DNA of 64,000 nt from Dermatophagoides farinae (Eukaryota; Arthropoda; Arachnida; Sarcoptiformes; Pyroglyphidae). Positions 15,440-58,802 of the stretch are shown here, piece by piece. Both the position numbers and the translations under genes were made by a program. The notes beneath the pieces were generated by a model that was not told the DNA's origin, did no database searches, and saw only the letters and a program-made list of their open reading frames with translations. The stretch is from positions 434,001 to 498,000 of the forward strand of contig NC_134677.1 of the NCBI RefSeq assembly GCF_024713945.1, read 5' to 3'. The stretch's first letter is position 1, and the number at the start of each line of letters is the position of its first letter.

Positions 15440-15904
15440 TTAGATTCGTTTATATGTTCGAACGGAAGTGACACCATCACAGGATGCAGTCTAAGAATAG
15501 AAATATAAATTTGATTTTGGGTTCCATTTCACTTGAAAACATCACAAAAAAAAACTTACCACAACAACTTCATCGCCATTGAATTCACGAATAATTTTCA
15601 CTTCTTTATCACCGAATTGTGTTTGAACAAATTTATTGTCACCTTCTTTTTGGATGACCGTTTTCACTCGTTTACCATCGGCACGATCTTCTTCGAATTC
15701 TTCGCCCAATTTGAATTTAGCTTCAGTATTTTTGAACGTACTTAATGAACGGAAAATGTATTGGTCATTTTCTATTGCCACTTCAAACGTTGGTTTCAAT
15801 GTTTTAGCTGCCGTTTTCACCATAAAACCGACGCCCAATTTGTCGAGAAATTCATCGAATTTTTCCGATTTTTCTAATTTATATTTACCTTCAATGCTTG
15901 CCAT
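15440..15904 (-). CDS. fatty-acid-binding protein, group 13 mite allergen type
   Basis: Exons 15904-15560 (345 nt, 115 codons) and 15490-15440 (51 nt) give 131 residues beginning [20 protein letters not shown] and ending [16 protein letters not shown]. This is an intracellular lipid-binding protein: a ten-stranded beta-barrel that carries fatty acids in the cytosol. The P2 carboxylate-binding residues are present at the canonical positions Arg106, Arg126 and Tyr128. The sequence matches the Dermatophagoides group 13 allergen as I remember it, and this is the main basis for naming the organism. The donor is GTG|GTAAGT and the acceptor TTCTTAG|ACT, phase 0. The coding part has only the third of the three classical FABP introns. 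A paralogue lies upstream on the same strand at 17544-18087. Confidence 0.95.
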
Positions 15905-17543
15905 TGTTTTTGATTGATTGATTGATTGATTGATGAACACAATATTAAAACAAAAAACAAAGTGGAAATGAAGTTTTCAATTTGATTTATCGTCGTCGAA
16001 TGTGTGTGTGTGTGAAATGTGAATTGTTTGGTGGTTTATAATAATAATGTAACGATGGTAATGATGATTTTATCGAAATAAAAAAAACTGATGACTATGA
16101 GACTTTTATACACGCATTCACAAGCGAAACAAACAAAAAAAAAATGATGCCTGCTAGTAGCTCGACGACGACTACGAAAAAAAGATAGCGGTTTTTTTTT
16201 GTCAACCAATGAAACTACTCATGTATAACTCATATCATGCTGTTTCCTCCCAACCATCACCACCACCACCAACACCACCACCGAAACCATCCGGCGTCAT
16301 TGTCATTCAGCATCATCATCATCATCGTGTATGTCATAAATGTGCACACGTATATTTAACATTTATTTATCGCAAGTTTGTAAACGCAACGTATATCGTG
16401 AATCGACCGCGCGAGTACATTGTTTTGTTTGTTTGTTTGTAATAATAATTGGTGAATGTGATAAAATTTGTGGCCCCACCACATATATCAGTTATTGAGG
16501 AGAAAAAAAATTTTTTTTTGTTTTTCTTGCTGATATGAAACCATTTTTTTTATCTAAAAATTTTGTTGATCGAATGTTTGAGTGTGTGTGTGCGTTTACA
16601 CAATTGTAACAATCGCAGTGTGTTGGTTATATTCATTGTGGTTTCTCAAATTTTATTATCATCGTTGATAAGTACAACTGTAAAAAAGCTCTATATAATG
16701 AATTTCGATATGAATATGGCTGGATGAATGTGATTCGAATGATGATGATGACGATGATGATAAAATATATGCCACTGATGTATATATGTTGATTTTAATG
16801 ATTATGATGATGATGTGGAAGAGGATGGAGAGTTTTTTTTTCGATGTAAAGAAAAAATGTATCTGTGTGTTTGTAGTAATATAATAATAATGTGTGTGTA
16901 CAAAGGTCAATAACCAAAAAAAAAAAAAAAAAAAATATTGAATTTCGTAGTTCGTGCATGTAAAACATTTTGTTTTTTTTTTGTTTGTTTGTCGGTACAT
17001 TCATTCACAAATATTGTTCAAAACGATTTTTACAGTTGTCGCTGTTGTTGTTGTTGTTTTTTTCTGCTCAGATTTATCAAATCGAATAGAATGTCATCGA
17101 ATTCGTCAATCAATCAATCTGAAAAAAAAACAGAAATTGATGACATTCAATCAGTCAGTCAATCAATCAATCAATCAATGCATTGGCTTGAAATACATGA
17201 TGTCTGGCATGTTTGGGTGTTTTTTTTCATTGATTTGTGATAATCATCAATTATCACCAGGCAGATATGGACTTTGTGCACTTTTTTTTTTGATGAATGT
17301 GACAAACAACAACGAATCCAATCGGACATTGTTGTTGCGTATACCCGAAAGATATCACATAAAGTATAATACTGTGGTGATATTTATAGCTACTAGATAT
17401 ATGTAAAAAAAACGAATTTTCTAGAATCAAAAAAAAATTTTTTTTATTGATCAAATGAAAATTTTATTTTATCAAAAATTTGAAAATTTTAGACAGATTC
17501 AGACGTTTTTCAGATTGTCTACCATCACAAACCACCACCACTA
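15905..17543. other. spacer between the two FABP genes
   Basis: No gene seen. It contains short (CA/GT)n and (CAT)n tracts, an A run near 16917-16935, Ser/His-repeat open frames and (CAAT)n repeats near 17110-17180. The 15905-16100 part should hold the promoter of the first FABP gene and the part next to 17543 the 3' UTR of the second; I cannot point to specific motifs. Confidence 0.5.
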
Positions 17544-18087
17544 CTACAAACGTTTATAGAAACGAACGGAAGTAACACCATTCACTGTGGCTATTACATT
17601 CAATCCATCATCGGTAAATTCTCGAACAATTTTCACTTCTTTATCGCCTTTCTGTATCTGTATCATTCGATTATCACCTTCCATTGTGATGATGGTCTGA
17701 TTGGATTGGAAAAAATTCAAATCATGTGATTAATTAAAGGATTTTTTAGGAACAAAAAAAAACCAAACCTTGACCAAAACATCATCGGCACGCATTTCTT
17801 CAAATTCTTCATTCAATTTGAATTTAATCTCTGTATTTTTCACTGTTGTTTCCGTTTTGAATACATAATAATCACCATCTTTGGTTATGGTTACAACCGG
17901 TGTTACTCTTTTGGCCAGATTACGTTTAACAAAATTGACACCTGTTGTTGTTTTGATATTCAATGACATGAAAAATTTTTTTTTTTTTTTTGGAAATTCA
18001 ACAGTTACCACACTTACCCAATTCGCTGAGAAATTCATCAAATTTTTCGGATTTTTCCAATTTATATTTGCCTTCAATTTGAACCAT
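17544..18087 (-). CDS. second fatty-acid-binding protein (tandem paralogue)
   Basis: Exons 18087-18018 (70 nt), 17941-17769 (173 nt) and 17696-17544 (153 nt) give 131 residues. The product begins [20 protein letters not shown] and ends [13 protein letters not shown], clearly related to the neighbouring allergen-type FABP (shared [44 protein letters not shown]). Arg106, Arg126 and Tyr128 of the lipid-carboxylate site are retained; the middle ([16 protein letters not shown]) is more divergent. Splice sites are TTGG|GTAAGT...CAACAG|GTG (phase 1) and AAG|GTTTGG...AATCAG|ACC (phase 0). It retains the first two classical FABP introns and lacks the third, the reverse of its neighbour. Expected role: cytosolic fatty-acid or other lipid carrier. 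Confidence 0.93.
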
Positions 18088-19115
18088 TTTGTTTTTTTTT
18101 TCGTTCGTTTAAACAACACAACACAAGTGGTGAAAAATGAAAAATAAAAAAAATTCAAAATAGAAAAAAATTTTCCAAAAGTTATCCACTATTTATACAC
18201 CACACACACAGCAACCTGACTGTATTTGAAAAGAAAAAAAAATCGAATGTTTGAGATTATGATCATCATCATGGTTACCTTGGTGAGCACAACATCCGCA
18301 GAGATATTGTCTTGAAATTTTCAAATGTACTACTTGCATTTCTAGTGATTGAAATCTTTTTCATCATCATCCATGTAACAATTATTTTTTTTTATCTCTG
18401 AATAAACAACAACGGCAATGATAATGATGTGAATGAAAGGGGAAAAAAGATAACTGATGATCAAACAAGAGAGAGAGAGAGAAAGATGGCGTGAGATCCA
18501 ATGAGGCATAAATAAATAATTACCATCATCATCATCATCAAACGAATGTGATTGTCATGGCCATTTTATTATTATTATTATGATGGTGATGGTTACCTTG
18601 GATTCCAACGTTCTCATCTAATGTCTGTAATCGGTTTTTTTTTCTATTGATAGAATTCCATCATTAATGTTTGTTTGTTTGTTTTTTTTAGACATAATGC
18701 CAATTTTTGCACTAATCAAATAATCCGATTAAATATTCTTTATTTTATTTATAGATATTTATTACAAAACCAGTCAAATCGATGATGATAATCACCGTTA
18801 TATTAACCACCAATCTGTTGGTGATAATAAATAATGGTAAATTTCCATAATCATTGCAAGCCACCATTTTTATTTGCAGGTACAATAGTACCGCCAACCA
18901 TTATCAATTGACAAGAATGAATGGTTGTGTGTGTTGTGTTGTGTTTGTGTAGACAATTCATCATCAATTTCTGATCAATTTATTTATTCATTCAATTCAG
19001 ATATCGATTAACAATATTGATATTGTGCCATAAATTACAATTTGTATGTGGGAAAAATAAGAAGAAAAAAACAACATAAACCAAACATTTAGCTGTAGCT
19101 GTAGTTCAATGATTA
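18088..19115. other. intergenic, no supported gene
   Basis: AT-rich spacer with (GA)n at about 18470-18482, CAT repeats and (TTA)n. A possible two-exon 28-codon micropeptide on the plus strand (18782-18836 joined to 18880 onward) was noticed and not accepted. Confidence 0.5.
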
Positions 19116-19784
19116 TCATGATAATAAATGTTGATCAAGAAATTCTTCAATCGTATCGGTATCCCATTTCTGTATATTCAGCTCATCAACAACATCATGA
19201 TGTTCATTCAATAGTTTCAATATTGGTAATATACCACGTACAAATTTAATTTTAAGATTGGAATATTTTTTTGATTTATCACCACGTATGAATGCTATTG
19301 TGAATGATAAAGGATAAAAATCACAATGGTGGAATGTTTTTTTCCAAAAAAAAAAAAAAAAAAATTCAAAACACAAACCTTTTATTTGGGGAAAATTTGC
19401 AATATTACATTCACAATATTCTAATCGTGCAAAGGAATACTGGTGGATGGAAGAAAAAACATCATGTTAATAAAATTCGAATGTTTTGTCTGTATTTGAT
19501 TCATACTTTTTTCGAATTTGAATCATCATCTTGACGACAACATTTCATACACGAATCTTTCAGATTATCTAGCTCAAATTTTGTCAATTCTAAACACCGA
19601 GAACAAAATAGTTCCGCTGGATTATAACCAAGTTGATTACATTCATTATCGGTTAATTTTTCGCCCACAATCGATGTGATAATCACAGACATGAAACAGC
19701 CGAATAGATACATCTGCATGGCGAGAAAAAAAATTTGAAAGTTTTCGTTGTTCAATATTATAAGATGAAACTTACTGGATTCAT
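19116..19784 (-). CDS. SELENOF: SELENOF (Sep15) homologue with Cys in place of selenocysteine
   Basis: Four exons, 19784-19776, 19713-19507, 19439-19379 and 19294-19116, give 151 residues. Hallmarks in order: a short hydrophobic leader (MNPMYLFGCFMSVIITSIVG); the Cys-rich UGGT-binding segment (ECNQLGYNPAELFCSRC, CMKCCRQDD); a thioredoxin-like fold with LEYCECNIANFPQI; then AFIRGDKSKKYSNLKIKFVRG and ILPILKLLN...NTD-like end (WDTDTIEEFLDQHL). Vertebrate SELENOF has CGU at the redox site; here it reads C-E-C (TGT GAA TGT), so the Sec is replaced by Cys and no in-frame TGA is needed. Family role: endoplasmic-reticulum redox partner of UDP-glucose:glycoprotein glucosyltransferase. The first coding exon is only 9 nt (MNP); an alternative start at 19719 cannot be excluded. 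It is divergent from the HTH-ANTH gene. Confidence 0.92.
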
Positions 19785-19990
19785 TTTTTTTTTGTTGCAA
19801 ATTTTGAGACCAAAAATTGAGAAATTGAAATTGAAATTTTTTTTTGTTTTCAAAAAAAAACACGTCAAATATATTTGAGAAAATTTCAAATTCTACTCGA
19901 ATGGTCCATTGGTTGGAAATAGTCACAACTGTTTTTTCAATGTTGTCACAAAAATTTATTGATTTATTGATGAGAAAGAACAAAAAAAAA
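19785..19990. promoter_or_regulatory. probable bidirectional promoter
   Basis: Only 206 nt separate the start codons of the divergent SELENOF gene (minus) and the HTH-ANTH gene (plus). Unless there are distant untranslated exons, both promoters and 5' UTRs lie here. No TATA box or other core element was recognised with confidence. Confidence 0.4.
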
Positions 19991-21293
19991 ATGGATTGGA
20001 AACAAAATCTTATCGATTCAATAAATCAAGATGAACAGATAATTTTCATTAAATTTTGTACATTACTCAATCATAATGCTCAACAGATTGAAGATGAATT
20101 AATCAAAGCTATCGGGTCCAAAGCCTATTCATTGGCCGCGATTCAACGTTTTCAGAATGAATTAAAAGAACGACAAAATCGAAAAACCAATGAAAAAATT
20201 ATCAAAAATATTCTGCTGAAATCCGAATCGAATAACAGCATCAAACCTAAAAAAGTAAGTCAATTGAATTATTGATCATTGACTCTGACTCGAATCATTT
20301 GTTGAACAGGAAAAATATCTCAACAACTTACTGTACAGTGATTGTCAAAAATTGGCAAAAAAATCCATGGCCACGAAAAATCATTTTGAAAAAAATTACC
20401 TAACAATTTTGGACAAAATATTAAATGCTCATGAATGGAATATTGATGAAACATTATTCGAATTGATTTTGATCAATTCCTATCAAACACAATCAAGTGA
20501 ATCATTTTGGAAATATGCCAATAATTGCATCTATAAAAAGATTGATCTGAAAATTGTTGACATACATAATATTTATTGGAAATTTCTCTTTCTTTGCCAT
20601 TGGCTCATGAGAAATGGCCATCCAAACGTTATTAAAGATGCATATGGCCAACGATCATTATTGGTGGAGTTGGCTAAAATCAAAACCTGTATATTACCAA
20701 ATTGTTGCCTTTTTAGTCAATTGAATCCATTGTATTTTTCATTGGTGCTTCAAAAAATTGAATTCCATATGGAACATGTGAAAATTCCTGGAAATTTCGT
20801 TATCAATTCATTACAATTAGAACAATTGGGAAATCAGGATCCATGCGTGTACGAAAAAATCTGTATTGAACTTTTCAATTATATGGATAAAATTTTACAA
20901 TTACAAATGGAAATTTTCGATATTCGTGGCCTAAATATTGATGGTGCGCAGCAAAAATGTATACTGAATCCATTGAAATTATCGATAATTGAATCAAGTC
21001 AAATTTATGATTTAATTTTTCAATTAATGCAAAAATTACACAATCATCATCACGAATCATCATTTGTTAGTGAAAATGATTTGAAAAAATATCAACATCG
21101 TTTCCGTGATCAATTTATGCAGCTAAAATTATTTTATTCCAAATGTCAAGAATATGATTATCTCAACGATTCGATACAGATACCTGAATTGGTGGATGAG
21201 CCACCAAATTTCGGCAATCCATCGATGAATGATGATGAATTTGAACAACAAACACCAGTGTTTTATCCACGTATTGTTATTGATGAAAATTAA
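19991..21293 (+). CDS. HIP1/Sla2-type ANTH domain protein with transposase-like HTH N-terminus
   Basis: Exon 1 is 19991-20254 (88 codons) and exon 2 is 20310-21293, 415 residues in total (AAA|GTAAGT ... GAACAG|GAA, phase 0). Exon 2 matches the ANTH domain of HIP1/HIP1R. It has FWKYANNC, a WKFLFLCHWLMRNGHPNVIKD motif at residues about 180-198 (human has RDGHPNVLKD), IELFNYMDKIL, a C-x-L-x-PL-x-L-x-I-x-E block, YQHRFRDQFMQLKLFY and IQIPELVDEPPNFGNPS. ANTH domains bind PtdIns(4,5)P2 in clathrin endocytosis. The protein stops right after ANTH: the coiled coil and actin-binding THATCH domain of HIP1 are absent, and fukutin starts 105 nt downstream. Exon 1 (FIKFCTLLNHNAQQIEDEL, GSKAYSLAAIQRFQNELK) fits the HTH_48 domain of mariner-type transposases (SETMAR-like). 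ANTH assignment is strong, HTH moderate. Confidence 0.75.
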
Positions 21294-21397: not shown

Positions 21398-22783
21398 ATG
21401 AAACCATTGAATTTGACATTGGGTCATCAGATTTTATTTTTTTTATTAGTAACAACCGGTTTATTATTGATTTTCGCTCATTCATTCATGAAAAATGATG
21501 TTACAAGCACAAATATTTTGGATAATAATGTTCCGTCATCTAGAACATTGAAAATATCGAAAGATTTGATTGAAATTATTTTTCATTTCAATTCAAAAAT
21601 TTTCATCATCGATCCAAATCTTTTAATGGAATTTTTAAATCCACAACAATCGTATGAATTACAATGGAGATTTAATCTGAATTTGAATGAATCTGACCGT
21701 CTAGCAACAACATTCGGTATATTTGATTATCATTTACGAGAATTTCAAAATTTATTGAAAAAACAAAATATTACCGTTGAAAATTATGGCAGTCAATTTC
21801 CATTTAATGATACCAATGTTCCTGTTCATATCGTTTTCCAAATGAATAATTTGACCATTCATGTTGTCGTTTTTTATCATGTTGAACATTTTCTATGGAT
21901 TGGACAAATGTCTCCGGCAAATTGTTGTTCACCATCACCAATGTATGGCAAATTTGAACAAATTTTCGATCCATTTAAAATTCAATTTATCGACATTATA
22001 CCAGTACCAGATGATATTGAATGGTTTCTAAGTCAATTACCAACATCACGTTATTTACATTGTCCAATTGGTGAAAAAATGAATTGGTTCACGAAATATC
22101 GAATTGAATTGAATGAACAAAGAATCCATAAAACAATTGAATCAATTGTAACGATGAAATCATTAATGAGAGCATTGCGAATGGAATTCTGGATCATGTG
22201 CGGTACATTACTGGGATGGTTTCGTCATTGTCATCCCATTCCGTATACAACCGATACTGATCTTTCGACTTGGTCAAAATATTTTCAAAATGAAAACAGC
22301 AGTCACGGAGACTGGATAACTGATCAGTTAAAATCCGTAGCTCTCAAACATGGATTGAATCTTTTCTATCGTTTTGGTGAACCAAGTCAAACATTGGAAT
22401 ATTCATTTCGTACACAATTTTATGATGAAAAAATTGATTTATTTGTTACATATGATAATGATGGTGGTGCTGGTAGTGGTGCAAATGATTCATATTTAAT
22501 ACCAAGTCATATTACAAAACATAAAAAATATCGTAATTATCGTTATCCACGTTATGAACTTTGTTCCATCACGCTGTTAGGACATAAATTACTAGCACCA
22601 TGTCAAACTGAACAAGTTATTATCCGTGAATATGGCGAAAAATGGAATGAACCAATTAAAGATTGGAATTATGTCTCATCACCATTTAATGGTGATGAAA
22701 TTATAAATTTTTCATTTCCAATCGATCAATATACAGAATATCGACGATTATATAAATCAAACGAATTGGTCATGATAAATTGA
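21398..22783 (+). CDS. FKTN: fukutin-like ribitol-phosphate transferase
   Basis: A single exon of 461 codons, the same length as vertebrate fukutin as I recall it. It is a type II membrane protein: a hydrophobic segment (ILFFLLVTTGLLLIFAH) at residues about 11-28, then a long luminal part. The LicD/nucleotidyltransferase core shows FWIMCGTLLGWFRHCHPIPYT followed by TDTDLSTW near residues 284-291, the acidic motif expected to bind metal and CDP-ribitol. Downstream IDLFVTYD, YRYPRYELCSI, VIIREYGEKWNEPIKDWNY match the C-terminal fukutin block. Family role: Golgi addition of ribitol-5-phosphate to the O-mannosyl glycan of alpha-dystroglycan. The ATG at 21398 is chosen; the open frame extends upstream only into poly-Thr without ATG. 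Tail-to-tail with the RBBP4-like gene, with 13 nt between stop codons. Confidence 0.88.
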   Translation: MKPLNLTLGHQILFFLLVTTGLLLIFAHSFMKNDVTSTNILDNNVPSSRTLKISKDLIEIIFHFNSKIFIIDPNLLMEFLNPQQSYELQWRFNLNLNESDRLATTFGIFDYHLREFQNLLKKQNITVENYGSQFPFNDTNVPVHIVFQMNNLTIHVVVFYHVEHFLWIGQMSPANCCSPSPMYGKFEQIFDPFKIQFIDIIPVPDDIEWFLSQLPTSRYLHCPIGEKMNWFTKYRIELNEQRIHKTIESIVTMKSLMRALRMEFWIMCGTLLGWFRHCHPIPYTTDTDLSTWSKYFQNENSSHGDWITDQLKSVALKHGLNLFYRFGEPSQTLEYSFRTQFYDEKIDLFVTYDNDGGAGSGANDSYLIPSHITKHKKYRNYRYPRYELCSITLLGHKLLAPCQTEQVIIREYGEKWNEPIKDWNYVSSPFNGDEIINFSFPIDQYTEYRRLYKSNELVMIN

Positions 22784-56457: not shown

Positions 56458-58802
56458 ATGAGTGATAAACATATTGAAACTGTGAATCATTTAAAGAAAA
56501 AATTGGATAAAGGTGTTAGTTTTGAAAAGGTAAGATGATGATGATGATGATGAATAATTTAACAGAAAAAAAATGTTTACTGACCATTTTTTCCATTCGA
56601 TTTATATAGACAATGCATATATTATATAAATTACAAAAAATACCAATTTCTGTCCAATTATTGGAGGTATTTACATTCATTATTCATTGTTGAACAAATA
56701 TTAATAATTTTTTTTTTTGCATTTACAAAATTTTAGGAAACTGGTATCGGTTATAAATTACGTGAATTGAGTAAACGTGAAAAAAATAATGATGTTGGCA
56801 AAACGGCTAAATTATTGATTATGGCATGGAAACAATTTCTGAAAGATCAACAAGAACGGCAAGAAAAAGAAGATGATGACGATGACGATGATGTTGTCGA
56901 TGAACATGATGATGAGGAAGAACAAGAATATGATGATGATCATTCTAAACATCAACATAAACATCGAAATGAACGTCATCATTATCAACAACAACAACAA
57001 CAGCAGCAACAGCATAATAATATGGATTCCTGTGATGATGAACAACAACAACAACAATTCAATGGCAACAATGATGATGATGATGATGATGATGAAATTG
57101 GTCAAAATGTTTCAGATAATAAATCAGAAGAAAGTGGTGTTAGTCCACCACAACAACAACATCAATATAGCATCAGTAATAATAAAAAGAAACATAAGAA
57201 AAAGAAAAAATCACGAACCAAAGAGAATATGATGGATCCGAGTGATGATGAAAGAAAAGAAAAGAAAAAAGATAAAAAACGTAAACATCGTGATATTAAT
57301 GAAGATGGTGATGATGATGATAATATGAATGGTTTCGATGACGGTGGTAACAATAGATTAAAATATCATCGATTGGAAATGTCATCGTCATCAACATCAT
57401 CATCTAGATATATGGATAAAAATAAAAAATGTGATAATGATTCCAGTTTTAAATATTCAAATGGTGATATAATTGGTATTCATGATGAATCAAATTGGAT
57501 TAACAATAATGAACAACAATCTGTGCAACAACAAGTAACAGCCACAAATAAACGAAATTCAACGAAAATGAAAAACATTTCTTCTACTTCCACTACTACT
57601 ACTATTTCGAATGGTGGCGATATGTTTAGTTCAATGTTAAATATGGGTGATCAACATGTGTTACAATCTACCAACAAGCATGGGTAATGTTTACAAGTTT
57701 CTTCATTTTTTTAGATCATTATAATTAATTTTTGGAACACTAAAATAGGAAAACTTCAATAACTAATTATGGTCGCAATAATCGAATGAATCAATCTTTT
57801 TTGAATGATGATGATCAACAGCAATCGTCATCATCATCGTCATTAACTTCGAATTTTGATAGAGAAATGATGCAATCATTGAATTTATCGGCAAATCGAT
57901 ATGATCCAAGCTTATTTCAATATTATCAATCACAATCAAGATCGAATAATAGTAATGATGATTTAGATAAAAATCAAATGATAAATATGGCTGGTATGAA
58001 ATTTAAAGGCCGTACACAGGTATATGCTGGTTCATCGAAAGTTGTAACCGTTCCCGAAGTATATCGATTACAAGATATTTGCATTAAAGTATTGATGAAT
58101 CATGTGAATAAAATCTATGAAGTTGGCGATTTACCATATTTTATATTGAAACCAGTGTTTGCTAAATGCACTGTACAACAGCTACGGCGAATCGAACATT
58201 ATAATCCGGTAAGTATTGTGAATTTTGTTTATTTTTGTTTTAAAATTTTTATTTTATTTACAACCACGAACAGCAATTATTGGAAGATACAGATGAATTG
58301 TGGCGTGAATTTTGTGAAAAAGAATTCAAAAACAAACGAATGGATCACAATAGATTTGAATCATGGCGTGATTTTTATGGCTATCTTGTTGATGAACGTG
58401 AACAGAAATTGAAAAATATAACCAAAAATATCAATTCAAAACAACGTCAAGCAATACCTGGTTTGTGTGAAATATATTTTTTTTGTTGTTGCACAATTTA
58501 TTCTGATTTGTTCACTTCAAAACAGAACGTAAAACACAACAATTGGAAGCGGTTAAAACACCAAGAGAAATTCGTCGACGACAAGAACGAAATTTTGGCA
58601 CAGTATATCCAATGAAACGAACAGGTAGTTCGGTATCATCATCGTCATTGCCGAATAGTGAGTTTTGTTTGTCCAATGATTCAAGGATTATTAATATATA
58701 TGGTCTTTTTTTCGTTTGTTTGTTTGTTTTAATATAGAAGGAAAACCTGCGCCATTGATGAAGAAGTTACTACAATTGCGGCAGAGTAAAATACGCCGAT
58801 AA
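56458..58802 (+). CDS. ELOA: Elongin A, transcription elongation factor and ubiquitin-ligase substrate adaptor
   Basis: Seven exons, 56458-56529, 56610-56666, 56737-57683, 57749-58208, 58274-58460, 58526-58657 and 58738-58802, give 639 residues. Residues 1-80 form the TFIIS N-terminal (LW) domain: VNHLKKKLDKGVSFEK, LYKLQKIPISVQLLEETGIGYKLREL, VGKTAKLLIMAWKQFL. Then comes a long Asp/Gln/His/Lys low-complexity linker. Residues about 450-560 are the Elongin A domain: VPEVYRLQDICIKVLMNHV contains the BC-box (L-x3-C-x3-L) that binds Elongin C, followed by PYFILKPVFAKCTVQQLRRIEHYNP, DTDELWREFCEKEF and ESWRDFYGYLVDERE. The C-terminus has APLMKKLLQLRQSK. The protein stimulates RNA polymerase II elongation with Elongins B and C and, with Cullin 5, ubiquitinates stalled polymerase. 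All introns are GT-AG with consistent phase. Confidence 0.93.

Follow-up and report, generated by a model that had tools for sequence, protein, structure and literature searches.

A divergent and C-terminally truncated HIP1 paralogue is probably encoded in the genome of the mite Dermatophagoides farinae

HIP1 bridges clathrin and actin through its coiled coil and its I_LWEQ (THATCH) domain. For the ANTH domain of the related protein Sla2, PMC8129110 describes K24, K26 and H27 as PIP2-binding residues, with K14 nearby, and R29 as the epsin interface, and reports that the exchange R29A blocks ENTH/ANTH assembly and membrane remodelling. That paper also states that deletion of residues formerly assigned to the epsin interface destabilises the domain. 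We take these to be the Tyr-Leu of the extra ANTH helix of the HIP1/Sla2 subfamily, given as Y252 and L253 in PMC5780493. Residues of a ubiquitin-binding loop are named in PMC8648300 as L241 and D244 in HIP1R and as L212 and D218 in Sla2.

We compared with these proteins a predicted gene found in a window of 64,000 nucleotides of D. farinae DNA. A sequence-only reading had described an exon of 88 codons joined by a phase-0 intron to a single exon of 984 nt, with a product of 415 aa, and all of this, including the peptides it quoted, was recovered from the sequence. The gene and its neighbours are as follows.

19119..19719, minus strand: divergent Sep15/SelM-domain gene (Sep15_SelM E 7.4e-21 in 19119-19466)
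19991..20254, plus strand: exon 1, opening with ATG, 88 codons; probably helical with a basic C-terminal half
20255..20309, plus strand: intron of 55 nt, phase 0, GT-AG (GTAAGT...AACAG)
20310..21293, plus strand: exon 2, 984 nt without an internal intron, coding for a HIP1-type ANTH domain (327 aa and the stop)
20367..20369, plus strand: rival start ATG at exon 2 residue 20, where the HIP1-homologous part begins
20445..20462, plus strand: DETLFE codons, exon 2 residues 46-51, at the position of the KxKHxR PIP2/epsin motif of HIP1/Sla2
21398..22783, plus strand: downstream fukutin-N-like gene (FKTN_N E 2e-7), 104 bases past the exon 2 stop

Both strands of the window were scanned for ATG frames that run for 88 or more codons up to a GTRAGT and are followed by an AG with 300 or more open bases behind it. 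This arrangement occurred three times (this gene, 57786-58274, and 40708-39661 on the minus strand) and in none of 40 two-base-block shuffles, in which one strand was shuffled. The exon-intron arrangement therefore exceeds chance, and the predicted gene model probably describes a real gene. Its start codon is not fixed, as further in-frame ATGs lie upstream of exon 1 at 19901, 19940 and 19970, in a stretch with a non-coding-like codon score (-0.231). Elsewhere in the window, the frames at 56737-58412 (plus strand) look like those of an Elongin A gene.

The likely start of the Sep15/SelM gene lies about 270 bases from exon 1, and 19504-20025 gave no Pfam-type family match. This neighbour reads CEC where the selenoprotein form carries a TGA-coded selenocysteine, and thus looks like a cysteine form. 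On the other side, the 104 bases between the exon 2 stop and the fukutin-like gene held short frames only, with nothing recognisable by eye. Further away on the minus strand, a fatty-acid-binding gene at 15542-15904 (in a wider span of 15542-15976) matched the allergen Der f 13 best in the PDB (E 1.1e-70), which points to a Dermatophagoides-type mite, and adjacent frames at about 17544-18188 on that strand resembled by eye a second, diverged member of that family.

The sequence-only reading had proposed an HMM search of the 415-residue product, and in this search exon 2 matched Pfam ANTH with E 8.1e-33, from profile position 54 onwards, its frame ending shortly after the domain. The best PDB match was the ANTH domain of HIP1R (7ost, E 4.2e-29), ahead of Sla2 (E about 1e-10), so that the description of a single exon encoding a HIP1-type ANTH domain and stopping after it held. 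Homology to HIP1 extended from exon 2 residue 21, the motifs WKF, GHP, FH, YMD and EPPNF were kept, and the C-terminal end aligned, with a gap, to the tail that follows the HIP1 ANTH domain (the PxVVI stretch). The Tyr-Leu of the extra helix was also kept: the YL in EYDYLNDSIQIPEL aligned with RYLTSLITIPKL of 5oo7, whose letters are 252-253 by the offset that makes the motif Arg residue 37, while the other Sla2 row has V and T at 252-253. Coiled coil and I_LWEQ were absent between the stop at 21291-21293 and the next gene at 21398, and a search of the genome for I_LWEQ found nine places, on contigs C7 and C10 only.

A search of the mite's own genome for ANTH domains gave six places including the window, the others belonging to the following.

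Contig C5: AP180-like gene
Contig C7, about 4.28 Mb: HIP1 gene, two ANTH pieces
Contig C7, 4.36 Mb: epsin-type gene
Contig C15: ANTH match below the cut-off

In the C7 gene at 4.28 Mb, ANTH pieces come first, then frames that by eye look like a coil, then I_LWEQ pieces, so that it is apparently a full-length HIP1. Nine of its exons joined gave 319 residues with an ANTH match of E 2.2e-69, of which 146/297 were identical to HIP1R. The window copy shared with this ANTH part 93 of 263 aligned residues (35%), with a score of 421 against a maximum of 64 among 300 shuffles. A tree of six rows grouped the window copy with the mite's own HIP1 (support 57/29), and a topology that joins own HIP1 to HIP1R and leaves the window copy outside was not rejected (p-AU 0.307); the branch of the window copy was 2.58 long versus 0.22 for own HIP1. 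Contig C15 (425 kb) carried, beside its weak ANTH match, an ENTH match of its own and may stem from a non-mite organism; by eye, the frames of one of its loci (L031, G000:C15:276000-283500) look unlike mite genes. Among viral contigs scanned for relatives, two stretches fitted a pattern and none was confirmed.

The docking face is changed in the window copy. In a stretch where the alignment is free of gaps, Sla2 K24, K26, H27 and R29 were replaced by D, T, L and E, whereas own HIP1, like HIP1R, has retained K, K, H and R. The residue at Sla2 K14 stayed K, and K13 was replaced by D (R in own HIP1). Three other epsin-interface positions of Sla2 (K10, R25 and W36) differ already in own HIP1 and HIP1R and are therefore uninformative on the window copy; they also count somewhat against our reading, since animals do not keep this interface strictly constant. 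Counting K, R, D and E, the net charge of the motif stretch was -4 in the window copy, whereas own HIP1 has +4, HIP1R has +3 and two Sla2 sequences have +4 and +5. The PIP2/epsin-interface residues are thus lost and the charge is partly reversed. The ubiquitin loop was lengthened, with Leu falling on V or H and Asp on N or E, varying with alignment and row.

The codon score of exon 1, 0.035, was the highest of its six frames and compares with 0.057 for exon 2. A non-coding reference of 1640 overlapping pieces, from regions judged non-coding by eye, had a mean of -0.243 (sd 0.118), and 0.49% of these pieces scored as high as exon 1. G+C content by codon position mirrored that of exon 2. Held-out coding pieces had a mean of 0.158, and since 4/27 of them scored as low as exon 1, it is less typical as coding sequence; a real Sep15 exon read in frame scored -0.019. 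A score from synonymous choices only (-0.013 for exon 1, 0.022 for exon 2) did not discriminate, and the 16 intron codons scored 0.043, which indicates that short pieces are noisy. Exon 1 is probably coding. A weak structure model from the single sequence (pLDDT 57.5) was helical, with helices at residues 13-25, 30-41 and 48-81, and residues 46-88 carried a net charge of +7. The equivalent model of exon 2 was nearly all helical with a pLDDT of 52.2. Because this sure ANTH domain also receives low pLDDT without relatives, the low confidence for exon 1 is no evidence against a fold.

Searches with exon 1 returned matches that we regard as chance. In the genome it retrieved itself and one match at chance level (E 3.58), with no second copy. 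Weak Pfam matches (IFT20 E 0.0087, L27_2 E 0.025, DUF6402 E 0.047) lay below cut-offs and were taken as chance, and two PDB rows (E 1 and 2.2) were likewise at chance level. Exon 1 was also compared as a possible repeat of exon 2 and as a piece of own HIP1; the local scores of 38 and 31 were at shuffle level, for which the mean of 38 was taken from another pair (exon 2 versus HIP1).

These results bear on an alternative in which exon 1 lies outside the protein, translation starts from ATG 20367 at the margin of the ANTH domain, and the frame called exon 1 is an upstream or chance one. The start of HIP1 homology directly after this ATG would agree with it, as would the non-coding-like score of exon 2 residues 1-19 (-0.150), the lack of any relative of exon 1 in Pfam, the own genome and the PDB, and the low codon and synonymous-only scores of exon 1. 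Nevertheless, the exon 1 frame scored above 99.5% of the pieces taken as non-coding, the splice structure was absent from the shuffles, and ATG 19991 has the better context (A at -3, versus T at -3 for 20367). We therefore consider a start within exon 2 rather unlikely, while giving it more weight than the other alternatives below.

Regarding the origin of the copy, none of the eight introns in the ANTH part of own HIP1 is kept in the window copy. This agrees with the earlier proposal of an intronless, truncated ANTH domain, and the intron-rich C7 gene provides a separate HIP1 in the same genome. The copy presumably arose without introns, either as a processed copy or by wholesale intron loss. 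A target-site duplication or poly-A tail would not be expected to survive at 35% identity. Processed copies usually keep the 3' part of their parent, and the retention of the 5' part of HIP1 is a point against a processed copy. An intronless, truncated ANTH part on a very long branch might also be expected of a decaying retropseudogene. However, 327 codons have stayed open despite about 65% residue change, and the WKF, GHP, FH, YMD and EPPNF motifs persist, so we regard decay as improbable. At a stop frequency of 0.057 per codon, a frame that remains open at such divergence suggests that the copy was kept by selection.

The sequence-only reading had proposed a host gene made by joining a domesticated mariner HTH (HTH_48) to the ANTH domain, and the HTH half of this proposal was not supported, judged by the criterion that the reading itself had set, a lack of HTH_48 hits. 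HTH_48 was absent from Pfam searches at E up to 10 for both exon 1 and the whole 415-residue product, which also lacked any transposase family, with the caveat that HMMER filtering discards the majority of matches with E beyond about 0.1. A search for HTH_48 through the whole genome (62.4 Mb, 22 contigs) found ten places at E <= 0.001, none of them in the window. We also built an unfiltered profile of eight genuine HTH_48 domains, comprising six of the ten own-genome matches together with SETMAR and Mos1; L005 and L008, duplicates or near-duplicates of L004, were left out, as were two weak matches without a locus. Held-out members scored 48.7-85.2 bits in 8/8 cases (three being close kin of one another), and exon 1 scored 1.0 bit, a value equalled by 328/5000 shuffles and by 17/289 other frames of the window. 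In hhalign the probability was 0.3% in global and 3.1% in local mode. By all four approaches HTH_48 was rejected for exon 1. The likeness was within chance, and this case illustrates that a resemblance to HTH_48 seen by eye can be of that kind. Among the genomic HTH_48 places, L001, L002, L003 and L006 have the longest frames, of 148, 435, 253 and 183 aa, respectively, and are candidates for domesticated copies. No title among the literature matches listed dealt with a mite gene of this kind or with a fusion of transposase and ANTH.

A SETMAR-like host-transposase fusion, in which a captured HTH_48 would tie the ANTH domain to DNA, is therefore very improbable: the helix spacing in the weak exon 1 model would fit a three-helix HTH and the local hhalign alignment spans 39 columns without gaps (P-value 0.015, a single comparison), but the profile and hhalign scores, the lack of a Pfam or genome-wide HTH_48 match and the failure of exon 1 to retrieve mariner copies from the genome all speak against it. 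At most, an HTH in an extreme state of decay might underlie exon 1.

We consider it likely that the gene is a divergent, C-terminally truncated HIP1 paralogue, with a single-exon ANTH domain following one short, probably helical exon. As the fold-keeping motifs remain, the product would be expected to be a cytosolic, soluble ANTH protein. With the PIP2 and epsin residues gone it would not be expected to use the known interfaces to enter the PIP2-glued epsin/HIP1 coat, and with coiled coil and I_LWEQ gone it would not bridge clathrin and actin. It could then compete with HIP1 or deliver remaining ANTH partners, e.g. ubiquitinated cargo, and so act as a decoy or cargo adaptor, for which the basic-tailed exon 1 may supply a new contact surface. 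More tentatively, this would make it a lineage-specific ANTH protein with a partly charge-reversed docking face and a new helical N-terminal module, a former coat adaptor that is possibly uncoupled from the membrane and acts on HIP1 and epsin as a regulator or decoy. If expressed, it would represent a natural separation-of-function HIP1, in which an ANTH fold is found without the known PIP2 site and without clathrin or actin coupling, and would allow one to ask about ANTH roles besides membrane binding. As such the gene is a modest curiosity that is worth a line in mite annotation.

Compared with known systems, the mite product resembles SETMAR and the mariner HTH_48 proteins in having a short, probably helical N-terminal segment ahead of another domain; it differs from them in lacking an above-chance HTH_48 score and a transposase part. 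With AP180/CALM (PICALM, LAP) it has the ANTH fold family in common, but it was 20.3% identical to the mite's own AP180-like gene (two typed exon pieces) versus 32.6% to own HIP1. The mite copy departs from HIP1, HIP1R and Sla2 in that it stops after the ANTH domain without coiled coil or I_LWEQ, has the KxKHxR motif replaced, carries an extra N-terminal exon and has no ANTH introns. These proteins are still its closest counterparts in likeness, with an ANTH domain of the same subfamily, the Tyr-Leu of the extra helix and a PxVVI-like tail that aligns with a gap.
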